The notes beneath the pieces were generated by a model. It saw nothing but the letters and a program-made list of their open reading frames with translations, ran no database searches and was not told the DNA's origin. The translations under genes were made by a program, and so were the position numbers. From IMG/VR virus record IMGVR_UViG_3300020172_005130, positions 1 to 28,856 of that record: a stretch of 28,856 nt of DNA; one strand, written 5' to 3'. This DNA is from a virus. This document shows positions 940-21,777 of the stretch, in pieces (within the stretch, counting starts at the first letter, position 1; each line of letters begins with the position of its first letter).

Positions 940-1317
940 AAATTTCAACTGAGTTGACTTCACACTGATATTACACTATTACAGAGGCGGTCAGCCGGTA
1001 CCTCGAAGTGCTGTCTTTATCTGACGGCGGGTTCATTCATACATATCAGCGCACAAATGTCCGTAGGGTTCTTATCCCTTCTTTAGCCTATTTTTCCATT
1101 GCTCAAACATTCGAAATCGGTTTTATGAAGGCATATCCGATCATCATCCACAACACAAGGTGTGGGTAGTCAAATGAGTCATTGCTTCAGCACAATTGTT
1201 TCCATCTACGCGAAGAACATTCCGTATCTCTGGGCACTATTTTTCCTTACCAGTGCGAGTTTTATCTGAAGTGTATTGCCTAATGATATGCCTGAGATTG
1301 AGCCTTAATATGTGACT
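940..1317 (-). ncRNA. Candidate structured non-coding RNA
   Basis: About 380 nt without a credible gene on either strand and visibly richer in GC than its surroundings. A good sigma70 promoter (1318-1346) points leftward into it. The leftward transcript contains several hairpins: GCACT...AGTGC near 1225-1255, CCACACC...TTGTGTTGTGG near 1140-1165, ATCGG...CCGAT near 1110-1140 and GGG-ATAAGAA-CCC near 1065-1080. I found no RNase P, 6S, SRP, group I or group II signatures. A weaker plus-strand promoter (954-982) also points into it, so strand is not certain. It could also be decayed coding DNA. Confidence 0.4.
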
Positions 1318-1346
1318 ATTATACTCCTTACTCAGGCATTTGTCTA
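1318..1346 (-). promoter_or_regulatory. Sigma70-type promoter, -10 between inverted repeat arms
   Basis: On the minus strand TAGACA (1341-1346) is followed after 17 nt by TATAAT (1318-1323). ATGCCTGAG (1288-1296) and CTCAGGCAT (1331-1339) form perfect 9-bp inverted arms flanking the -10 box. It would drive the non-coding region to its left. Confidence 0.6.
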
Positions 1347-1420
1347 GTATTTTTTAATTATGCTGCTGGATCATCGTAATACTTGTAATATCCTTCGTTT
1401 TCTTTTAAAACTCTGATTTA

Positions 1421-1690
1421 TCCACTGAGCCGTAAAACCCCGTCCTTTAGGATGTAAGGTGAATTATACATAAAAATATTATCGTTGTCAAAAAAAAGAT
1501 AAATAATATTGATATTACGAAAACCAAGTAATATCATTTTAGCTACCAATGGTAGCATGATATAGGGCTGGAACAGCCCGAATTTAAGCCTTTGGAGTTA
1601 TCAAATAAGACCAATGATATGATGTTGTGAGTAGTAGTGATATTACCACGTAAAATCGATCTGGTACTTAATTGATAATGGTGAATTAGG
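1421..1690 (+). repeat. Right arm of ~260-bp inverted repeat
   Basis: Inverted counterpart of 1-266. Reading rightward it has GAGCCGTAAAACCCCGTC, a degenerate second half of that stem, a GCTACC/GGTAGC hairpin, the GGGCTG-GAA-CAGCCC hairpin, then the shared CTTTGGAGTTATCAAATAAG block and a CTGGTACTTAATT outer end. No reading frame of useful length is found in it. The stem at the inner end is broken here but perfect in the left arm, which suggests this copy is the more decayed one. Confidence 0.75.
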
Positions 1691-1795
1691 AAGCCACGTC
1701 ATTTATGACGGGTAGTTCACTAAAGTGAAACACTACATCATCACATGCTAATTCTATCATAATTTTTCTTCCTTGGTTAATTTCAGACATAAAAA

Positions 1796-1835
1796 AACCC
1801 AAGGACCATCTTGTTTGTTCAAGATGACTTGGGTT
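1796..1835 (-). terminator. Rho-independent terminator of the tmRNA/tRNA operon
   Basis: On the minus strand AACCCAAG-TCATCTTG pairs with CAAGATGG-TCCTTGGGTT around a short AACAAA loop and is followed by seven T residues. It lies downstream of the leftward gene 1884-2246 and would end the transcript that begins at the tmRNA promoter. A T-run on the other strand suggests it can also work rightward. Confidence 0.9.
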
Positions 1836-1883
1836 AAAAAAGATTTTTTTAATTTTTTAAAAAGTCTAGTAATCTATAACATA

Positions 1884-2246
1884 TTAGATCAACGATTTGT
1901 AAAGTGAACCAGACAATTGGAAATTTGATTGCCAGCCCCATTCATCTAACACTAATTGATTGAAAGTAGTGTCATCTAACTCAATGATATCTTCAACACT
2001 TAATTCAAGCATTCTAATAGCACGAATATAGCTTTGTTCGTATGATGAAGGTGTAGCTGGTAAAGTTTTGACTTTACCAATATTGGTTAAATCACCCGTA
2101 TTAACCAGTTTCAAGTTGTTTTTGGTAATAACAACTACTGCTTTTTTGAAATCTTCAACTGATTCGATGTATTCAGCAATGTGTTTTTCTTTATTTTCTC
2201 GAATTACTGCTAGTAATTCTTCTCGTTTGATTTTTACTGTTTTCAT
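1884..2246 (-). CDS. Phage hypothetical protein, MKTVKIKREELL family
   Basis: A 120-aa protein starting MKTVKIKREELLAVIREN. An in-frame ATG eight codons upstream (2270) is possible, but neither start has a clear Shine-Dalgarno. The C-terminal part 'YIRAIRMLELSVEDIIELDDTTFNQLVLDEWGW' is a pattern I recognise from small hypothetical proteins of T4-like and other large phages; no function is established. It lies directly downstream of the tRNA and tmRNA on the same strand and ahead of the strong terminator, so it is probably co-transcribed with them. Confidence 0.75.
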   Translation of the reverse strand: MKTVKIKREELLAVIRENKEKHIAEYIESVEDFKKAVVVITKNNLKLVNTGDLTNIGKVKTLPATPSSYEQSYIRAIRMLELSVEDIIELDDTTFNQLVLDEWGWQSNFQLSGSLYKSLI

Positions 2247-2285
2247 GACGTTATTTTCTATGTTTCTCATAATAATAAATGAAAT

Positions 2286-2360
2286 TGGTGCTCTTGATGG
2301 GAATTGAACCCATTATCGTAAGTTTTAGAGGCTTTTGCTATACCAAGTAGCTTCAAGAGC
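2286..2360 (-). tRNA. Atypical tRNA, anticodon CUA (amber suppressor type)
   Basis: The minus-strand RNA has a perfect 7-bp acceptor stem (GCTCTTG / CAAGAGC), an A discriminator and an encoded CCA end (2286-2288). It has a D-arm GCTA-CTTGGTA-TAGC and a perfect T-arm ATGGG-TTCAATT-CCCAT. The 7-nt anticodon loop reads CTCTAAA, giving anticodon CUA, which reads UAG. The anticodon stem is weak: only three central pairs, with mismatches at both ends. The usual U8 and A14 are missing. It is therefore either a divergent suppressor tRNA or a decaying one. Charging identity cannot be deduced. It lies between the tmRNA and gene 1884-2246. Confidence 0.7.
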
Positions 2361-2369
2361 TGAATTATA

Positions 2370-2938
2370 AAGATAGTAGGGATTGCTCCCTACTAGGTAT
2401 TTTTGATAATAAGGTATTTCCTACCCCAGAATTCGCTGGTTATTAAGCAGCGATAGCATCAAAGATGCCATCTACAGTGTAGAATTCAAATTTTGTATTT
2501 GCTTTTGCATTTACTTTATTTTATGCCGATTAGGTCGGTCATCTTACCTGTTGCCGTCTCTAACTATTCGCCCAATCGAAACCATGACCGCCCCATAAAA
2601 TAATTAGCTATTGAAACTAACTATTTTATCGACATACATTTTTCTACCGTTCCAAGTTGATACTCATTGAATACAAACTTGGAACGGGTGGGAGTCGAAC
2701 CCACGTCTTGAACTCGTCCTCTTTGAAGGAATAACAACAATTCTTGTATGTCTATATCGCACACCCTTGCGACTTCAGCCTGATAAGAAGGTAGAGCTAA
2801 TAGGTTATAGATCTATGATTTCTAACCGTTTGCATAGACAAAATTAAATTACTAAACATTGATAATCAATACCCGACCCTCTATGAGAACCATTTCTAAA
2901 GTTCATATCAACCACTCGCAACTACGTGTTATTTAGTA
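2370..2938 (-). ncRNA. ssrA: Circularly permuted tmRNA (two-piece ssrA) precursor
   Basis: On the minus strand the 3' acceptor half comes first: T-arm GTGGG-TTCGACT-CCCAC (2688-2704) followed by CCGTTCC (2681-2687). After an ~86-nt spacer comes the 5' coding half, starting GGGGCGG (2588-2594) then TCATGGTTTCGAT, the conserved tmRNA 5' D-loop signature. GGGGCGG pairs with CCGTTCC with two G-U pairs. The tag frame ends in two TAA stops (2440-2445) and reads ANTKFEFYTVDGIFDAIAA if the resume codon is the GCA at 2500-2502; an earlier GCA (2506-2508) would add two residues. The Ala-Ala end is typical of tags read by ClpXP/ClpAP. A GNRA-like hairpin (2374-2395) may mark the 3' end. CCA is not encoded at the acceptor end. 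The permuted order is the alphaproteobacterial/cyanobacterial type. The 5' end is inferred from the promoter. Confidence 0.9.
2647..2687 (-). other. 12-bp hairpin joining tmRNA acceptor strand to the spacer
   Basis: CCGTTCCAAGTT and AACTTGGAACGG are perfectly complementary across a 17-nt loop. One arm is the tmRNA 3' acceptor strand plus discriminator; the other lies in the intervening segment that must be removed. In the precursor this perfect pairing would compete with the wobble-containing mature acceptor stem. A second weaker hairpin follows in the spacer (2596-2629). Candidate processing signal. Confidence 0.75.
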
Positions 2939-2945
2939 TTTGTAT

Positions 2946-2973
2946 ATTATAGCACATAAAAAACTAATGTCAA
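2946..2973 (-). promoter_or_regulatory. Sigma70 promoter for tmRNA operon
   Basis: Minus strand TTGACA (2968-2973), 16-nt spacer, TATAAT (2946-2951): both hexamers match consensus exactly. It places the transcript start near 2938, ahead of the acceptor half of the permuted tmRNA. Confidence 0.85.
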
Positions 2974-2980
2974 CTATATT

Positions 2981-3046
2981 TTAACGTTTTACACGTGATT
3001 TGGTTCTTGGTTTTCCTGTGATTTTATTATTTCTACTTCTAGCCAT
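2981..3046 (-). CDS. 21-residue highly basic peptide
   Basis: ATG at 3046, TAA at 2981-2983, preceded by GAGG seven bases before the start and by a near-perfect promoter at 3078-3105. The peptide starts MARSRNNKITGKPR and ends SRVKR; nine of its 21 residues are Arg or Lys. It resembles a tiny ribosome- or RNA-binding peptide, but I recognise no family. It lies immediately upstream of the tmRNA promoter and is probably also read into the tmRNA. The good start signals make it more than a chance frame; the length makes proof from sequence impossible. Confidence 0.6.
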   Translation of the reverse strand: MARSRNNKITGKPRTKSRVKR

Positions 3047-3077
3047 TTTGAGTACCTCGGTTGTTTAAGATGAGTTC

Positions 3078-3105
3078 ATTATACATCAGTCAATCTTGAT
3101 GTCAA
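3078..3105 (-). promoter_or_regulatory. Sigma70 promoter for the 21-aa peptide gene
   Basis: Minus strand TTGACA (3100-3105), 16-nt spacer, TATAAT (3078-3083), 32 nt upstream of the peptide start. It is divergent from the rightward holin-like gene block. Confidence 0.85.
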
Positions 3106-3144
3106 GTACATTTTAATAAATATAGTAATGAAGTGGAGAATTTT

Positions 3145-3579
3145 GTGGATATAGGCATACCAAATTTTGATTTTTTTAGTCTTGTACAACAATGTGGATT
3201 CCCAATAGCATTGGCGGTTGTTTGTGGATGGTTTGTGATGCAAGCAATTAAGTTAGTACTTGGATCAGTAGTGAAATCAATTAAAAAAATGACATTTTTA
3301 ATTAAATCGATGGACGGGAGAGTACGTCAAATGAATGTTGACATCATTGAAATTGATAAGTTGATATCGAAATCACTCCATGTCCAACCATTGCCTGAGA
3401 AGATTCACCATGAAGTTGCTGCGGTGATGAATAGCCATGATGTGAAACCAACACCCCCACCATCTGCCACACCTGTCCCAAAGAAATCTATAAAAGAACG
3501 ATTAAAAGACAAAATTGATGGTGTGGTAGAAAAAAATGTTGATACTATTTTAGAAAAAGTAGAAGGTATTACAAAATGA
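3145..3579 (+). CDS. Holin-like one-TM membrane protein, paralog 1
   Basis: A 144-aa protein with a GTG start at 3145, chosen because GGAG sits six bases upstream and because the resulting MDIGIPNF start matches the MDITQIAD start of the third paralog; an upstream GTG at 3133 is less likely. A hydrophobic segment (about residues 17-40, 'CGFPIALAVVCGWFVMQA') is followed by a basic region and a helical 'VDIIEIDKLISKSL' stretch, then a Pro-rich, Lys-rich tail not found in the two relatives. The layout (short N-terminus, one TM, charged tail) is like BhlA/UviB-type small holin-like proteins. Its stop overlaps the next start (ATGA). Lysis or membrane role is inference. Confidence 0.65.
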   Translation: MDIGIPNFDFFSLVQQCGFPIALAVVCGWFVMQAIKLVLGSVVKSIKKMTFLIKSMDGRVRQMNVDIIEIDKLISKSLHVQPLPEKIHHEVAAVMNSHDVKPTPPPSATPVPKKSIKERLKDKIDGVVEKNVDTILEKVEGITK

Positions 3580-13242: not shown

Positions 13243-13917
13243 TTAATCTGACGGGAACAAGCAATTTGCTACATATAAGGATGCTTGTTCTTCTGATAGT
13301 CCTAAATTCATTAGGACTCTTGGGTTGTGTGGATTAAGTCTTTGATTCTCAATATAATAATGATGGTTAGCTGAAACATCAACTATTGTATTGTTTGTAT
13401 ATATTAATGATGATAGGTATGCATTTAATGTTGCTGAAACAGTACTTAATAATTGTTCTAATTCATCATCTGATTGTACATTTCCAGCTGCAATAATAGA
13501 ATCTGAGAAGATTCGTTTACCCCAATCTGGTAATTCACGTTTTTTATTCCATTCTAATTTATCCGATTCTTCTTTAAACCAACTTGATAAAGAATGATCG
13601 GGGATAACCGGACTGAAATCATGAAAACATCCTGTTATTTTATTTTTACCTGCAAATACATCAAATCCAAATATTGGTGCTGGATTGTGGTAATGTGGGT
13701 AAATGCAACAATGCATCATCCACAGTCCGCGAGTATTCATGACATCAATTATATTAACGTGAGCTTTTCTATACAATGAAGATACCCAGGTCGTATTAGA
13801 CCAACCTGGGTTATTAAATTGTTCAGCTACGGGATCAGAAATTTCTTCACCTGATTGCTTAAAGTTATCAATGAATAAATGCTGTATATCTGTAAGAGTA
13901 CATAACAGTTTATTCAT
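13243..13917 (-). CDS. Ferredoxin-dependent bilin reductase (PcyA/PebS/PcyX family)
   Basis: A 224-aa protein of the FDBR family, which reduces biliverdin IXalpha to phycobilins with electrons from ferredoxin. The diagnostic stretch is 'LWMMHCCIYPHYHNPAPIFG' followed by 'FDVFAG' and 'GCFHDFSPV', which carries the His and Asp expected in the substrate pocket (H in MMHCC, D in FGFD). It starts inside the end of the heme oxygenase gene (8-nt overlap), so the pair forms a heme-to-bilin pathway. Phage versions include PebS (cyanophages) and PcyX (marine phages of presumed non-cyanobacterial hosts). With no other cyanophage traits here, PcyX-like is favoured. The product bilin cannot be read from sequence alone. 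Confidence 0.88.
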   Translation of the reverse strand: MNKLLCTLTDIQHLFIDNFKQSGEEISDPVAEQFNNPGWSNTTWVSSLYRKAHVNIIDVMNTRGLWMMHCCIYPHYHNPAPIFGFDVFAGKNKITGCFHDFSPVIPDHSLSSWFKEESDKLEWNKKRELPDWGKRIFSDSIIAAGNVQSDDELEQLLSTVSATLNAYLSSLIYTNNTIVDVSANHHYYIENQRLNPHNPRVLMNLGLSEEQASLYVANCLFPSD

Positions 13918-14488
13918 GACCCATCAACGGTAACACAGATTCAAATAATGCAGACGCACTAAGAGCCTTCATGATTTTAATAGCCCATTCAAATGCTACT
14001 CTTGCTTCGTCACCTAAATCATCAGTAAGTTCCGCCCGAATTGCATTTCTAAGACCTTCGACATCATCGAATTGGTAAAACTTACCAGAACCTGGTACAG
14101 TTTTAGCAATATATTGCCCACCATTTAATGTCCCGAGGTGATGAACATAAAAATGTGCTTTTATTAAATGTTTTCTATTTGGGTCATTTAATAAATCTTG
14201 TAGATATCTAATATATTCTAATGTTTCCGGTAACCATGAATAATGGGTATCTTTGTCAGCTAATTCAGTAAAATCTTGGTAGATATATTTTGTTCTATCA
14301 ATACCCGGTGAATTTGAAAAAAATTCTTGGACTTTGACACCAAACTCAATAGTCGAGTATATTGGGATCATTTGCCAAAGATAATTTATATATAATTCCT
14401 TTGGTAATTTACCTGAAATGGTTAATTTCATAAAATTAGTTTGTTCAGCTTTTGTGTGTAAATCTTTTGTATATTCACGTAATAACAT
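13910..14488 (-). CDS. ho1: Heme oxygenase (biliverdin-forming)
   Basis: A 192-aa protein of the HO-1 family, which opens heme to biliverdin, iron and CO. The proximal heme-ligand region is 'DLHTKAEQTNFMK' (His about residue 11). The distal-helix motif reads 'HHLGTLNGGQYIAK', where the common form is GDLSGGQ: the Asp that organises distal-pocket water (Asp140 in human HO-1) is Thr here, while the glycines are kept. Plant-type enzymes also lack this Asp, so activity is not excluded. It is the first gene after a consensus promoter and overlaps the bilin reductase gene, which would use its product. Confidence 0.9.
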   Translation of the reverse strand: MLLREYTKDLHTKAEQTNFMKLTISGKLPKELYINYLWQMIPIYSTIEFGVKVQEFFSNSPGIDRTKYIYQDFTELADKDTHYSWLPETLEYIRYLQDLLNDPNRKHLIKAHFYVHHLGTLNGGQYIAKTVPGSGKFYQFDDVEGLRNAIRAELTDDLGDEARVAFEWAIKIMKALSASALFESVLPLMGHE

Positions 14489-15372: not shown

Positions 15373-15672
15373 TTATTCCTCTTCAACTTTGATTTGTAGT
15401 GGAAAACCATTTTCTCTAGCCATTTTAGTAGCATCAATTGCTTTGACTTCAGCAATCTCATAATCGTAGACACCTGCAATCCCTGAACCAGTTTCATGAA
15501 CTTGCATAGTAACGTTGTATGCAGATGATTCATTATGTTTGAATACATCAACCAACATTGCAATAACGAAATCTATTGGAGTGTAATCATCATTAAGAAC
15601 GATTACTTTCCAACGTTTTGGTTCTGCTACTCGGATTTTTACTTTTTCTTCGATTCTAACGTCTGTTGACAT
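15373..15672 (-). CDS. clpS: ClpS-like adaptor of the ClpA protease
   Basis: A 99-aa protein starting MSTDVRIEEKVKIRV (AGGAAA upstream); a longer frame to 15708 lacks start signals. The ClpS core is clear: 'WKVIVLNDDYTPIDFVIAML' with the NDD-T/M-F motif at the N-degron pocket, and a downstream 'VHETGSGIAGVYDYEIAE' region matching the conserved H-x-x-G-x-G-xxGxYxxExAE pattern. ClpS delivers N-end-rule substrates to ClpAP and blocks degradation of ssrA-tagged proteins, which is notable with a tmRNA in the same genome. It is the third gene of dnaK-hsp20-clpS. Confidence 0.93.
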   Translation of the reverse strand: MSTDVRIEEKVKIRVAEPKRWKVIVLNDDYTPIDFVIAMLVDVFKHNESSAYNVTMQVHETGSGIAGVYDYEIAEVKAIDATKMARENGFPLQIKVEEE

Positions 15673-15694
15673 AATAGTTTTCCTGTGTAAGTGA

Positions 15695-16117
15695 TTATTT
15701 AATTTCAATTTGGCGAGGTTTTAATTCCTCTGGTACAACATATTCTAATGCTATTCGTAACAACCCATCTTTTACTTCTGCACCATTAACTTCCATATAT
15801 TCAGCTAATGGAAATCTAACTACAAAATTTCTAGAAGCAAGTCCACGGTGTAAATATTCCCATGATGATTCATCATTATCTTTATGCACCCCCGTGATAG
15901 TAAGAATATTCTGATCAATTTCTACATTGATTTCATCCTTACTAAAACCTGCCACTGCCAACTCAATACTGTAATTGGTTTCATTGTATTTTAAAATATT
16001 ATGTGGTGGATAATTTGATTGAGCTGTTAATCTGTTATTCACTAAACGGTCAACACCGACTAATGCTCTACTTAAACTTGCTAAAGTTGCTGTATCTAGT
16101 GTTCTTTCATTTGCCAT
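15695..16117 (-). CDS. Hsp20/alpha-crystallin small heat-shock protein
   Basis: A 140-aa protein from ATG 16117 (AGGAG upstream). The alpha-crystallin domain spans about residues 38-130: 'YNETNYSIELAVAGFSKDEI', 'VEIDQNILTITGVHKD', 'LHRGLASRNFVVRFPLAEYM' and the G-L-L-x-I motif ('DGLLRIALEYVVPEE'). It resembles IbpA and the Hsp20 proteins common in T4-like phages. It acts as an ATP-independent holdase passing clients to DnaK, encoded just upstream. A CTTG/CAAG hairpin next to the RBS could make a small RNA thermometer, but this is only suggestive. Confidence 0.9.
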   Translation of the reverse strand: MANERTLDTATLASLSRALVGVDRLVNNRLTAQSNYPPHNILKYNETNYSIELAVAGFSKDEINVEIDQNILTITGVHKDNDESSWEYLHRGLASRNFVVRFPLAEYMEVNGAEVKDGLLRIALEYVVPEELKPRQIEIK

Positions 16118-16142
16118 TGTAAAATCTCCTTGTATAAGCAAG

Positions 16143-16180
16143 AACAACCGTGAAACCCTAAAAGGCATTTCACGGTTGTT
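16143..16180 (-). terminator. Hairpin between dnaK and hsp20
   Basis: AACAACCGTGAAA pairs perfectly with TTTCACGGTTGTT (13 bp) around a 12-nt loop. It follows the dnaK stop by about 25 nt. The T-run is weak, so it may be an attenuator or an RNA-stabilising element rather than a full stop. Confidence 0.7.
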
Positions 16181-16205
16181 ATAATAACACACTATATTGT
16201 GTTTA

Positions 16206-18098
16206 TCAAACTTCTTTGAACTCAGCATTCACTGCTTGCCCACCATCAGTGGTTTCTGCAGCAGATTGTGATTGTTCAGATGCTTGTTTTTTTGCAAAAA
16301 CTGGACTTGCTGCCTCGAACAACTTAGTTACTGATTCATTGATCTTCTCAACATCATCACTGCTAGTAGCTTCATCAATGTTTTTGACTGCTTCTTCAAA
16401 TGCTGATTTTTCTTCATCTGATAATTGATCTTTCACTTCATCAAAATCTTTCTGCAAAGTATGACGTTGTGATTCAGCTTGATTACGAGCTTCAATCAAT
16501 TCTTTTTGTTTTTTATCTGCTTCAGCATTTTCTTCGGCATCTTTAACCATACGTTGGATTTCTTCTTCAGTCAGCCCTGAATCAGATTTAATGGTAATGT
16601 TATTTTTCTTGCCAGTGGATTTATCCTGTGCTGAGATATGCATGATACCGTTTGCATCAATGTCAAATGTCACTTCAATTTGTGGCATTCCGCGACGAGC
16701 AGGAGCGATTCCATCTAAGTTAAACTCACCTAATTGCTTATTGTAAGCATAAAGGTCACGTTCACCTTGCCCAACTTTAATTGTAACAGCAGGTTGGTTA
16801 TCCTCAGCGGTTGAGAAAGTTTGACTTGCTTTTGTAGGGATTGTTGTATTTTTCTGAATCAACTTGGTGAAAACTCCGCCCATTGTTTCAATCCCTAATG
16901 ACAACGGTGTTACATCAAGCAATAAGATATCAGTTTTATCCCCTGACAATACTGCGCCTTGAACCGCAGCACCAGCAGCTACTGCTTCGTCTGGGTTAAC
17001 GTCTTTACGCGGCGTTTTACCAAACAATTTTTCAACTGCTTCTTGTACCTTTGGAATTCTTGTAGAACCACCGACTAAAATTACATCATCGATTTCATCT
17101 ATTGAAACATTTGCATCCTTTAATGCAATTTTACAAGGTGCGACACTTCGTTCGATTAAATCATCAACCAAAGATTCAAATTTTGATCTAGAGATAGAGA
17201 CATTTAAATGTTTTGGCCCAGATGCATCGGCTGTTATATATGGTAGATTTACAGTTGTTTGGTTTGTACTAGACAACTCTATTTTTGCTTTCTCTGCTGC
17301 GTCTTTAAGACGTTGTAATGCAATTGGGTCATCTTGTAAATTGATTCCTGTTTCATTTTTGAATTCGGAGTTTAAATAATCGATAATACGGTTATCAAAA
17401 TCTGCACCACCTAAATGGGTATCACCATTAGTTGATAATACTTCAAATTGTTGCTCACCGTCAATATTTGCTATTTCAATAATTGAAATATCGTGTGTGC
17501 CAGAACCAGTATCCCAGATTACTACTTTTCTATCTTTGGATGACTGCTTATCTAACCCAAATGCTAAAGCCCCGGCAGTCGGCTCATTTATAATTCTTAA
17601 TACATTTAATCCGGCAATTGTTCCAGCATCTTTAGTCGCTTGACGTTGCTCGTTATTGAAATATGCTGGTACAGTGATAACCGCTTCGGATACCTCATAG
17701 CCGAGATATTCTTCAGCTGTACTTTTCATTTTTCTTAAAATTTCAGCAGATACCTGTTGCGGTGATAATTTCTTACCATTGATTTCAACCCACGCATCAC
17801 CATTATCTGCCTCGATGATTTTGTATGGAATAGATTTGATGTTATTTTGAACTTCTGCATCATTAAATTTACGACCGATTAAACGTTTAACTTCGTAAAT
17901 TGTATTAGTTGGATTTGTAATTGCTTGGCGTTTAGCCGCAGCACCTACTAAAATTTCGGTATCTGTATAAGTTACAATACTAGGGGTTGTTCGTGAACCT
18001 TCTGAATTTTCGATGATTTTATATGAACCATTATCGAACACTGATACACATGATACACCAGTTCCTAAATCTATACCAATTACTGTTTTTTTACTCAT
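16206..18098 (-). CDS. dnaK: DnaK (Hsp70) chaperone with altered phosphate loops
   Basis: A 630-aa Hsp70, close to E. coli DnaK (638 aa) over its whole length, with AGGAG before the ATG. The nucleotide-binding domain (1-380) keeps 'VKRLIGRKF' (catalytic Lys), '[14 protein letters not shown]' and '[16 protein letters not shown]'; the linker '[19 protein letters not shown]' and the substrate domain are standard, and it ends AEFKEV. Two phosphate-binding loops are unusual: loop 1 is IDLGTGVSC (usual IDLGTTNSC) and loop 2 is WDTGSGTHD (usual YDLGGGTFD), though both Asp residues and the loop-2 Thr remain. ATPase kinetics may differ. No DnaJ or GrpE gene is in the window, so host co-chaperones would be needed. 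Confidence 0.96.
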
Positions 18099-20671: not shown

Positions 20672-20722
20672 CCTAAAAATTGAAAGAGACTTGATTATAA
20701 GACAATGGTTGATGCTTGTCAA
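20672..20722 (-). repeat. 51-bp promoter repeat, copy A
   Basis: Differs at one position from 21727-21777. Each copy carries a full TTGACA-N17-TATAAT promoter and the same untranslated leader down to the CCTA just before the start region. Recent duplication or conversion of a strong promoter. Confidence 0.9.
20694..20722 (-). promoter_or_regulatory. Consensus sigma70 promoter for gene 20286-20663
   Basis: Minus strand TTGACA (20717-20722), 17-nt spacer, TATAAT (20694-20699); exact matches. It sits just downstream of the PAAR gene stop. Confidence 0.9.
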
Positions 20723-21726: not shown

Positions 21727-21777
21727 CCTAAAAATTGAAAGAGACTTGATTATAAGACAATGGTTGATGTTTGTCAA
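21727..21777 (-). repeat. 51-bp promoter repeat, copy B
   Basis: Partner of 20672-20722, with the promoter TTGACA (21772-21777), 17-nt spacer and TATAAT (21749-21754). Beyond it a short TGTCAACCA direct repeat occurs (21772-21780 and 21782-21790 region), perhaps left by the duplication. Confidence 0.9.

Follow-up and report, generated by a model that had tools for sequence, protein, structure and literature searches.

Architecture of the tmRNA locus

The window, an IMG/VR record of 28,856 bases from a freshwater bacterial virus, is classed as viral and carries on its minus strand a genuine circularly permuted tmRNA gene. By employing the Rfam covariance models, we found a full-length match to tmRNA_permuted (RF04321; window 2739-2443, minus strand, model positions 1-213) at 102.9 bits (E 2.7e-19), the curated gathering score being 47 bits. 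The preliminary description had placed such a gene at 2370-2938; its permuted order was recovered by the model, and its limits agree with the span from the transcript start to the 3' hairpin. Among the clade-specific models, beta_tmRNA gave the top match (RF01850; 2791-2371, minus strand, full length, 81.4 bits, E 2.2e-24) and scored higher than alpha_tmRNA (RF01849). Judged by model score, the tmRNA body is thus of beta type and not of the SAR11/alpha type, at a score 2.6 bits short of the betaproteobacterial subtype cut-off (84 bits). RF01850 reaches 90-135 bits in many relatives belonging to this phage group. The standard one-piece model (RF00023) did not explain the region better, as no match to it was retained and both the permuted and the beta models scored higher. 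ARAGORN missed the tmRNA gene in the window, and the region showed no DNA similarity to cultured phages.

The gene order on the minus strand is promoter, acceptor half, 85-nt spacer, coding half and 3' hairpin. The features are as follows.

2946-2973, minus strand: perfect sigma-70 consensus promoter TTGACA-16-TATAAT, its -10 element preceded by TG
about 2939, minus strand: probable transcript start
2740-2939, minus strand: precursor 5' leader by alignment, common to the relative L107, with a probable start
2680-2739, minus strand: acceptor half (RF04321 alignment and parse), consisting of the P2 5' strand GUUGU before the T-arm, the T-arm, CCGTTCC and A73; CCA not encoded
2688-2704, minus strand: T-arm GTGGG-TTCGACT-CCCAC with canonical T-loop (RF04321 alignment and parse)
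2687-2681, minus strand: acceptor 3' strand CCGTTCC, with A73 at 2680
2647-2687, minus strand: predicted hairpin H1, CCGTTCCAAGTT-T-GTATTC-AAT-GAGTAT-C-AACTTGGAACGG
2595-2679, minus strand: spacer (intervening sequence) of 85 nt with no ORF; absent from the mature RNA in the permuted gene form
2595-2629, minus strand: second predicted spacer hairpin, ATAAAATAGTTAG...CTAATTATTTTAT, adjoining the expected RNase P site
2443-2594, minus strand: 5' part of the coding half, with GGGGCGG, D-loop TTCGA, P2 partner, tag frame and stop
2594-2588, minus strand: acceptor 5' strand GGGGCGG, then TTCGA
2554-2550, minus strand: P2 partner GCAAC
2443-2508, minus strand: tag reading frame AKANTKFEFYTVDGIFDAIAA (2508-2446) and stop TAA (2445-2443), from the RF04321 alignment and relatives
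2374-2395, minus strand: 3' hairpin TAGTAGGGA-GCAA-TCCCTACTA, 9 bp, the last beta_tmRNA helix
2286-2360, minus strand: tRNA with anticodon CUA, CCA encoded (ARAGORN; Rfam 52.2 bits)
1105-1261, minus strand: Polynucleobacter-1 RNA (RF01718), downstream of the tmRNA (Rfam)

The acceptor stem GGGGCGG/CCGTTCC forms all seven of its seven pairs, with both G3:U70, the alanine identity pair, and A73 present. Acceptor stem, CCA and tag were parsed at 46 loci. G3:U70 is found in all other automatically parsed relatives except L131, whose acceptor stem was mis-set by the parser and reads GGGGATG:CATCTCC when set by hand. The CCA is not encoded in the window (CCGTTCC-A-AGT), and among the relatives only L129 is likewise without it. 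The T-loop reads GGCAGNN, not TTCGANT, in phage Melnitz (L002) and in L105, L124, L126 and L351, i.e. in several phages and one bacterial contig.

Perfect sigma-70 promoters were found ten times in the window, against 0.12 expected from shuffling. Two near-identical ones (TTGACAAxCATCAACCATTGTCTTATAAT; 20694-20722 and 21749-21777, minus strand) lie about 1 kb apart, and another (3105-3078) belongs to a small basic ORF, MARSRNNKITGKPRTKSRVKR, at 2981-3046 (minus strand); L107 and L127 have similar ORFs in the corresponding position. A permissive scan of positions 1000-3200 for a leader or downstream riboswitch as in Melnitz returned nothing credible.

The tag peptide

As resume codon we assign the GCA at 2508 and not that at 2502, a placement backed by the Rfam alignment and by the relatives L107, L110, L126 and L131; around this codon L107 reads GTAATC-GCA-AAC-GAT-TCT-AAA-TTT-GAA. 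The preliminary description was right in calling the tag long and atypical with an Ala-Ala end, but had its start two codons too late. Encoded in the window is AKANTKFEFYTVDGIFDAIAA, a tag of 21 aa with the AA end, terminated by TAA. Tag lengths vary between 10 and 31 aa in the related phage group, the unusually long ones measuring 21-31 aa, and between 10 and 11 aa among the permuted tmRNAs of the Burkholderiales sample. By inspection, several of the long tags resemble a canonical tag with an added front segment, e.g. ANANTFDFSAMSFTGNTVRGA-ANESRFALAA in L106.

In L126 the tag DNA is identical to that of the window. L131, compared with the window over KFEFYTVDGIFDAIAA, has three synonymous and no non-synonymous differences, and its stop is TAG instead of TAA. 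Since L131 differs at synonymous positions only, apart from the stop, the window tag appears to be under protein-level constraint. The same tag is carried by alpha-type bodies in L126, L127, L128, L146 and L131, relatives whose CsgG is 84-93% identical to the window's, and by the beta-type body in the window. For L126 and L131, alpha_tmRNA is the winning model (65.1 and 37.8 bits, respectively), and the CsgG proteins of these two contigs are 93% and 84% identical to that of the window. Because one tag occurs in both alpha-type and beta-type bodies, an exchange of tag and body as modules has taken place, and with the tag kept while the body changes, what gets tagged and in which manner appears to be under selection. 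A copying of the tag from a phage protein was also considered and rejected, as a degenerate codon pattern for KFEFYTVDGIF matched eight IMG/VR contigs, carrying permuted tmRNA.

Neighboring RNA genes

The tRNA-CUA starts 13 nt beyond the tmRNA 3' hairpin. No strong T run lies between the two, so a common transcript is likely. This tRNA is kept in four relatives (L126, L127, L128 and L131), and the distance to it from the tag stop is about 82-83 bp in the window, L127 and L131. Across the relatives the anticodon loop is conserved and the stems differ, with a conserved C-A mismatch in the anticodon stem. More than 100 further phage contigs have this anticodon loop too, and in most of them the sequence that was read contained no tmRNA. 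Recoding of amber codons by the phage was rejected: the stops of 40 window genes are TAA (26), TGA (11) and TAG (3), and as TAG ends three of them, UAG is still a stop. One idea is that an amber-reading tRNA might cause read-through to mRNA ends, which the tmRNA could then resolve.

The Polynucleobacter-1 RNA is also found downstream of the tmRNA in L125 (1997-2153) and L131 (2031-2187). PMC2864571 assigns this orphan RNA family to Burkholderiales and to fresh water, and its occurrence in phage genomes downstream of tmRNA suggests that it is at least partly phage-borne.

The carrier phage and its possible hosts

That the gene is phage-borne, as first described, agrees with both the viral classification and the gene content of the window, which encodes a block of CsgF, CsgG, curli-repeat, FecR and CHASE2-cyclase proteins as in phages Melnitz and HTVC008M. 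Also encoded are DnaK, Hsp20 and ClpS in an operon-like run (15373-18098, minus strand), a heme oxygenase, a bilin reductase and, as read from the ORFs, putative ribonucleotide reductase genes. The heme oxygenase adjoins the bilin reductase, which is ferredoxin-dependent (13243-14488, minus strand). Permuted tmRNAs were found in 32 out of 50 related IMG/VR contigs, nearly all of which had been selected by a related CsgG, and the tmRNA bodies of the freshwater group are mostly beta-type (76-135 bits). ClpS occurs in 30 out of 37 contigs searched from the same phage group. Co-selection of ClpS with the tmRNA was not upheld: a tmRNA is present in 27 of the 30 contigs with ClpS and in four of the seven without it (p 0.068), the contigs being fragments.

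The bacterial DnaK closest to that of the phage is from Polynucleobacter (65%). Polynucleobacter and other Burkholderiaceae have a standard one-piece tmRNA, scoring 217-227 bits in three of the four genomes searched, and the permuted cut-off was passed in only eight out of 200 Burkholderiales genomes. ARAGORN classified one of these eight as one-piece, and the T-loop of one is alpha-like. Given this rarity of the permuted form, either the host belongs to the permuted minority, or the tmRNAs of phage and host differ in gene form.

Comparison with known tmRNAs

Phage-encoded permuted tmRNA as such is not new, since a publication from 2022 already describes Melnitz together with 53 two-piece tmRNAs encoded by phages, of which 50 came from aquatic samples (PMC9004378). 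What sets the window copy apart is its tag, its missing CCA, its spacer hairpin and its tRNA partner. The Methylophilales phage Melnitz (EXVC044M, MZ577097; PMC9004378) is, like the window, of T4 type with a permuted tmRNA and the curli/FecR/cyclase block. Its tmRNA, however, has an alpha-type body (106.7 bits with alpha_tmRNA), the tag ANDNYVPVDYALAA, an encoded CCA and a glutamine riboswitch behind it, whereas that of the window is beta-type with a 21-aa tag, no encoded CCA and the tRNA-CUA behind it. The betaproteobacterial permuted tmRNAs (RF01850; Burkholderiales L346-L350) share with the window the permuted order, the tRNA-like domain and the best clade model, but have 10-aa tags such as ANDERFALAA and an encoded CCA or CC; of the two, it is the window that has the longer tag, no CCA and a spacer whose predicted fold sequesters the acceptor strand. 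The one-piece tmRNA of Polynucleobacter and other Burkholderiaceae (RF00023) would have the same function in a different gene form. Another phage-encoded relative, the tmRNA of mycobacteriophage DS6A, has no tag frame according to PMC11915505, in contrast to the conserved 21-aa tag of the window.

The spacer hairpin

Hairpin H1 consists of 18 pairs (12 + 6 bp), including wobble pairs and a mismatch, with a predicted energy of -22.5 kcal/mol. In it the spacer binds the acceptor 3' strand, with AACTTGGAACGG in the spacer complementary to CCGTTCCAAGTT. In the predicted fold of the window precursor the acceptor pairing is 0.00, and enforcing the acceptor stem costs 16.7 kcal/mol. Predicted acceptor pairing is at least 0.99 in 17 out of 18 relatives, and the relatives' spacer is predicted to form a hairpin that prolongs the acceptor stem. 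The exception is L131, whose spacer is predicted to capture the 5' acceptor strand instead (4.5 kcal/mol). H1 was found in none of the other contigs or relatives, and its GGAACGG motif arose in 117 out of 200,000 shuffles of the window spacer. An origin of the spacer as a remnant of a duplicated coding half was rejected, since 633 out of 5000 shuffles reached the alignment.

Without the spacer, the two pieces are predicted to fold together with the acceptor stem formed, and the modeled mature tmRNA looks sound. As the spacer hairpin is predicted to capture the acceptor strand, the window copy may nevertheless be locked or broken: the mature RNA would be reachable only past H1, so that either a nuclease or helicase opens the path, or nothing does and the copy is damaged.

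Proposed function and alternatives

In trans-translation, an alanine-charged tmRNA enters stalled ribosomes together with SmpB, its tag is translated and the product goes to Clp proteases. The window gene is probably a phage-borne two-piece tmRNA of betaproteobacterial type, processed by the host and rescuing ribosomes with the AKANTKFEFYTVDGIFDAIAA tag. The strong host-type promoter would yield a single precursor, in which H1 would first have to be opened or cleaved to let the acceptor stem form. Host tRNA-processing enzymes would then excise the spacer, the CCA-adding enzyme would complete the 3' end, and host AlaRS would charge the RNA via G3:U70. Host SmpB and EF-Tu would bring it to ribosomes stalled on broken mRNAs, which would switch to the GCA at 2508 and append the tag, whose AA end should direct the product to Clp proteases. 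Use of the host's SmpB is assumed here because a phage-encoded SmpB, also considered, was found in none of the 37 related contigs searched. The likeliest benefit would be that ribosomes are released at a time when the phage is destroying or outrunning the mRNA of its host: degradation of this mRNA by the phage would leave many ribosomes stalled, and a strongly transcribed extra tmRNA could return them to use. In favor of this proposal we counted the model matches, the acceptor stem, the promoter, the constraint on the tag, the 32 out of 50 relatives with a permuted tmRNA, the two-piece fold and the Melnitz precedent; against it, the capture of the acceptor strand, the missing CCA and the beta_tmRNA score below the cut-off. 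The window gene offers a testable case for why lytic phages carry a tmRNA of their own.

Alternatively, the family could be functional but the window copy damaged or in decay, a spacer change having made H1 and removed the CCA, with a misfolded precursor and scarcely any tmRNA, or none, as the outcome. H1 lies upstream and would fold first, the captured acceptor strand has the advantage of 16.7 kcal/mol, the CCA is lost, and no other contig shares the hairpin. We nonetheless regard damage as rather unlikely, as the gene retains its promoter, T-arm, P2, G3:U70 and tag in intact form, the G-U pairs argue against H1 having newly arisen as a perfect palindrome, and an entirely inactive gene should have lost its tag as well. 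Less likely still is a regulatory lock, by which the tmRNA would stay inactive until a stage-specific nuclease or helicase opens or cuts H1. L131, which also belongs to the tRNA-CUA group, has a spacer predicted to capture the opposite strand, so that strand capture would have arisen twice within the group; these are, however, two cases only, with different pairings, and H1 is not conserved and has no known trigger.

Inverted repeats are a known class of artefact, and H1 occurs in a single metagenomic contig, so it could have been created in assembly or amplification from a true gene like those of the relatives. This is very improbable, considering that the arms span just 18 bp and contain a mismatch as well as wobble pairs, and that the sequence around H1 aligns continuously with L107. 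Hardly credible, finally, is that the RNA acts as a decoy, tying up SmpB or stalled ribosomes and thereby dampening the tmRNA activity of the host. The DS6A tmRNA, which has no tag, inhibits E. coli tmRNA according to PMC11915505, and GGAACGG in place of GGGGCGG would give A3:U70 and should prevent charging, but a decoy would not need a tag conserved as a peptide.

Putative micropeptide genes in the spacers of relatives

In relatives such as L112, L104, L115 and L124, a Shine-Dalgarno sequence and an ATG are located 9-15 nt behind the CCA and open a short hydrophobic spacer ORF, with its TGA one base ahead of the coding half. Scanning IMG/VR for a pattern of T-loop, TCCACCA, AGGAG and ATG gave 109 stretches, and 78 of the 107 that were processed proved to be permuted tmRNAs whose coding half matches. 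A membrane peptide of 21-24 aa, e.g. MNDNLGSLAIGVVVVLVVFALVLL, is encoded in at least 46 related contigs by 28 distinct ORFs. A regular expression for the core motif occurs 40 times in tmRNA spacers and nowhere else in the loci examined. The micropeptide pattern was absent from 289 alphaproteobacterial genomes, and the peptide had no match in PHROGs or among the INPHARED phages. Our literature search found no report of a micropeptide gene in a tmRNA spacer, and none is mentioned in the available portion of PMC11915505, in which 79 phage tmRNAs were curated and odd spacers remarked on.

The micropeptide has a pN/pS of 0.28 in the 24-aa set and of 0.44 over codons 6-18. The predicted fold has its last codons paired to the Shine-Dalgarno region, and part of its conservation is therefore structural. 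Overall, these aquatic T4-type phages seem to put the spacer to uses beyond mere excision. It is possible, if somewhat short of probable, that it constitutes a second functional compartment, with a micropeptide gene in the at least 46 contigs and a hairpin lock in the window, so that one transcript would give a rescue RNA plus either a micropeptide or a maturation switch. If the spacer is translated in the relatives, a permuted tmRNA gene would yield two products, which would give phages a reason to prefer this form. Spacer ORFs for membrane peptides of 21-32 aa were recorded in L112 (1501-1815, minus strand), L104, L115, L124, L148, L150, L151 and L239-L345, usually with the TGA stop a single base ahead of the coding half, and other spacer ORFs are those of L148, L150/L151, L102/L105, L130 and Melnitz.
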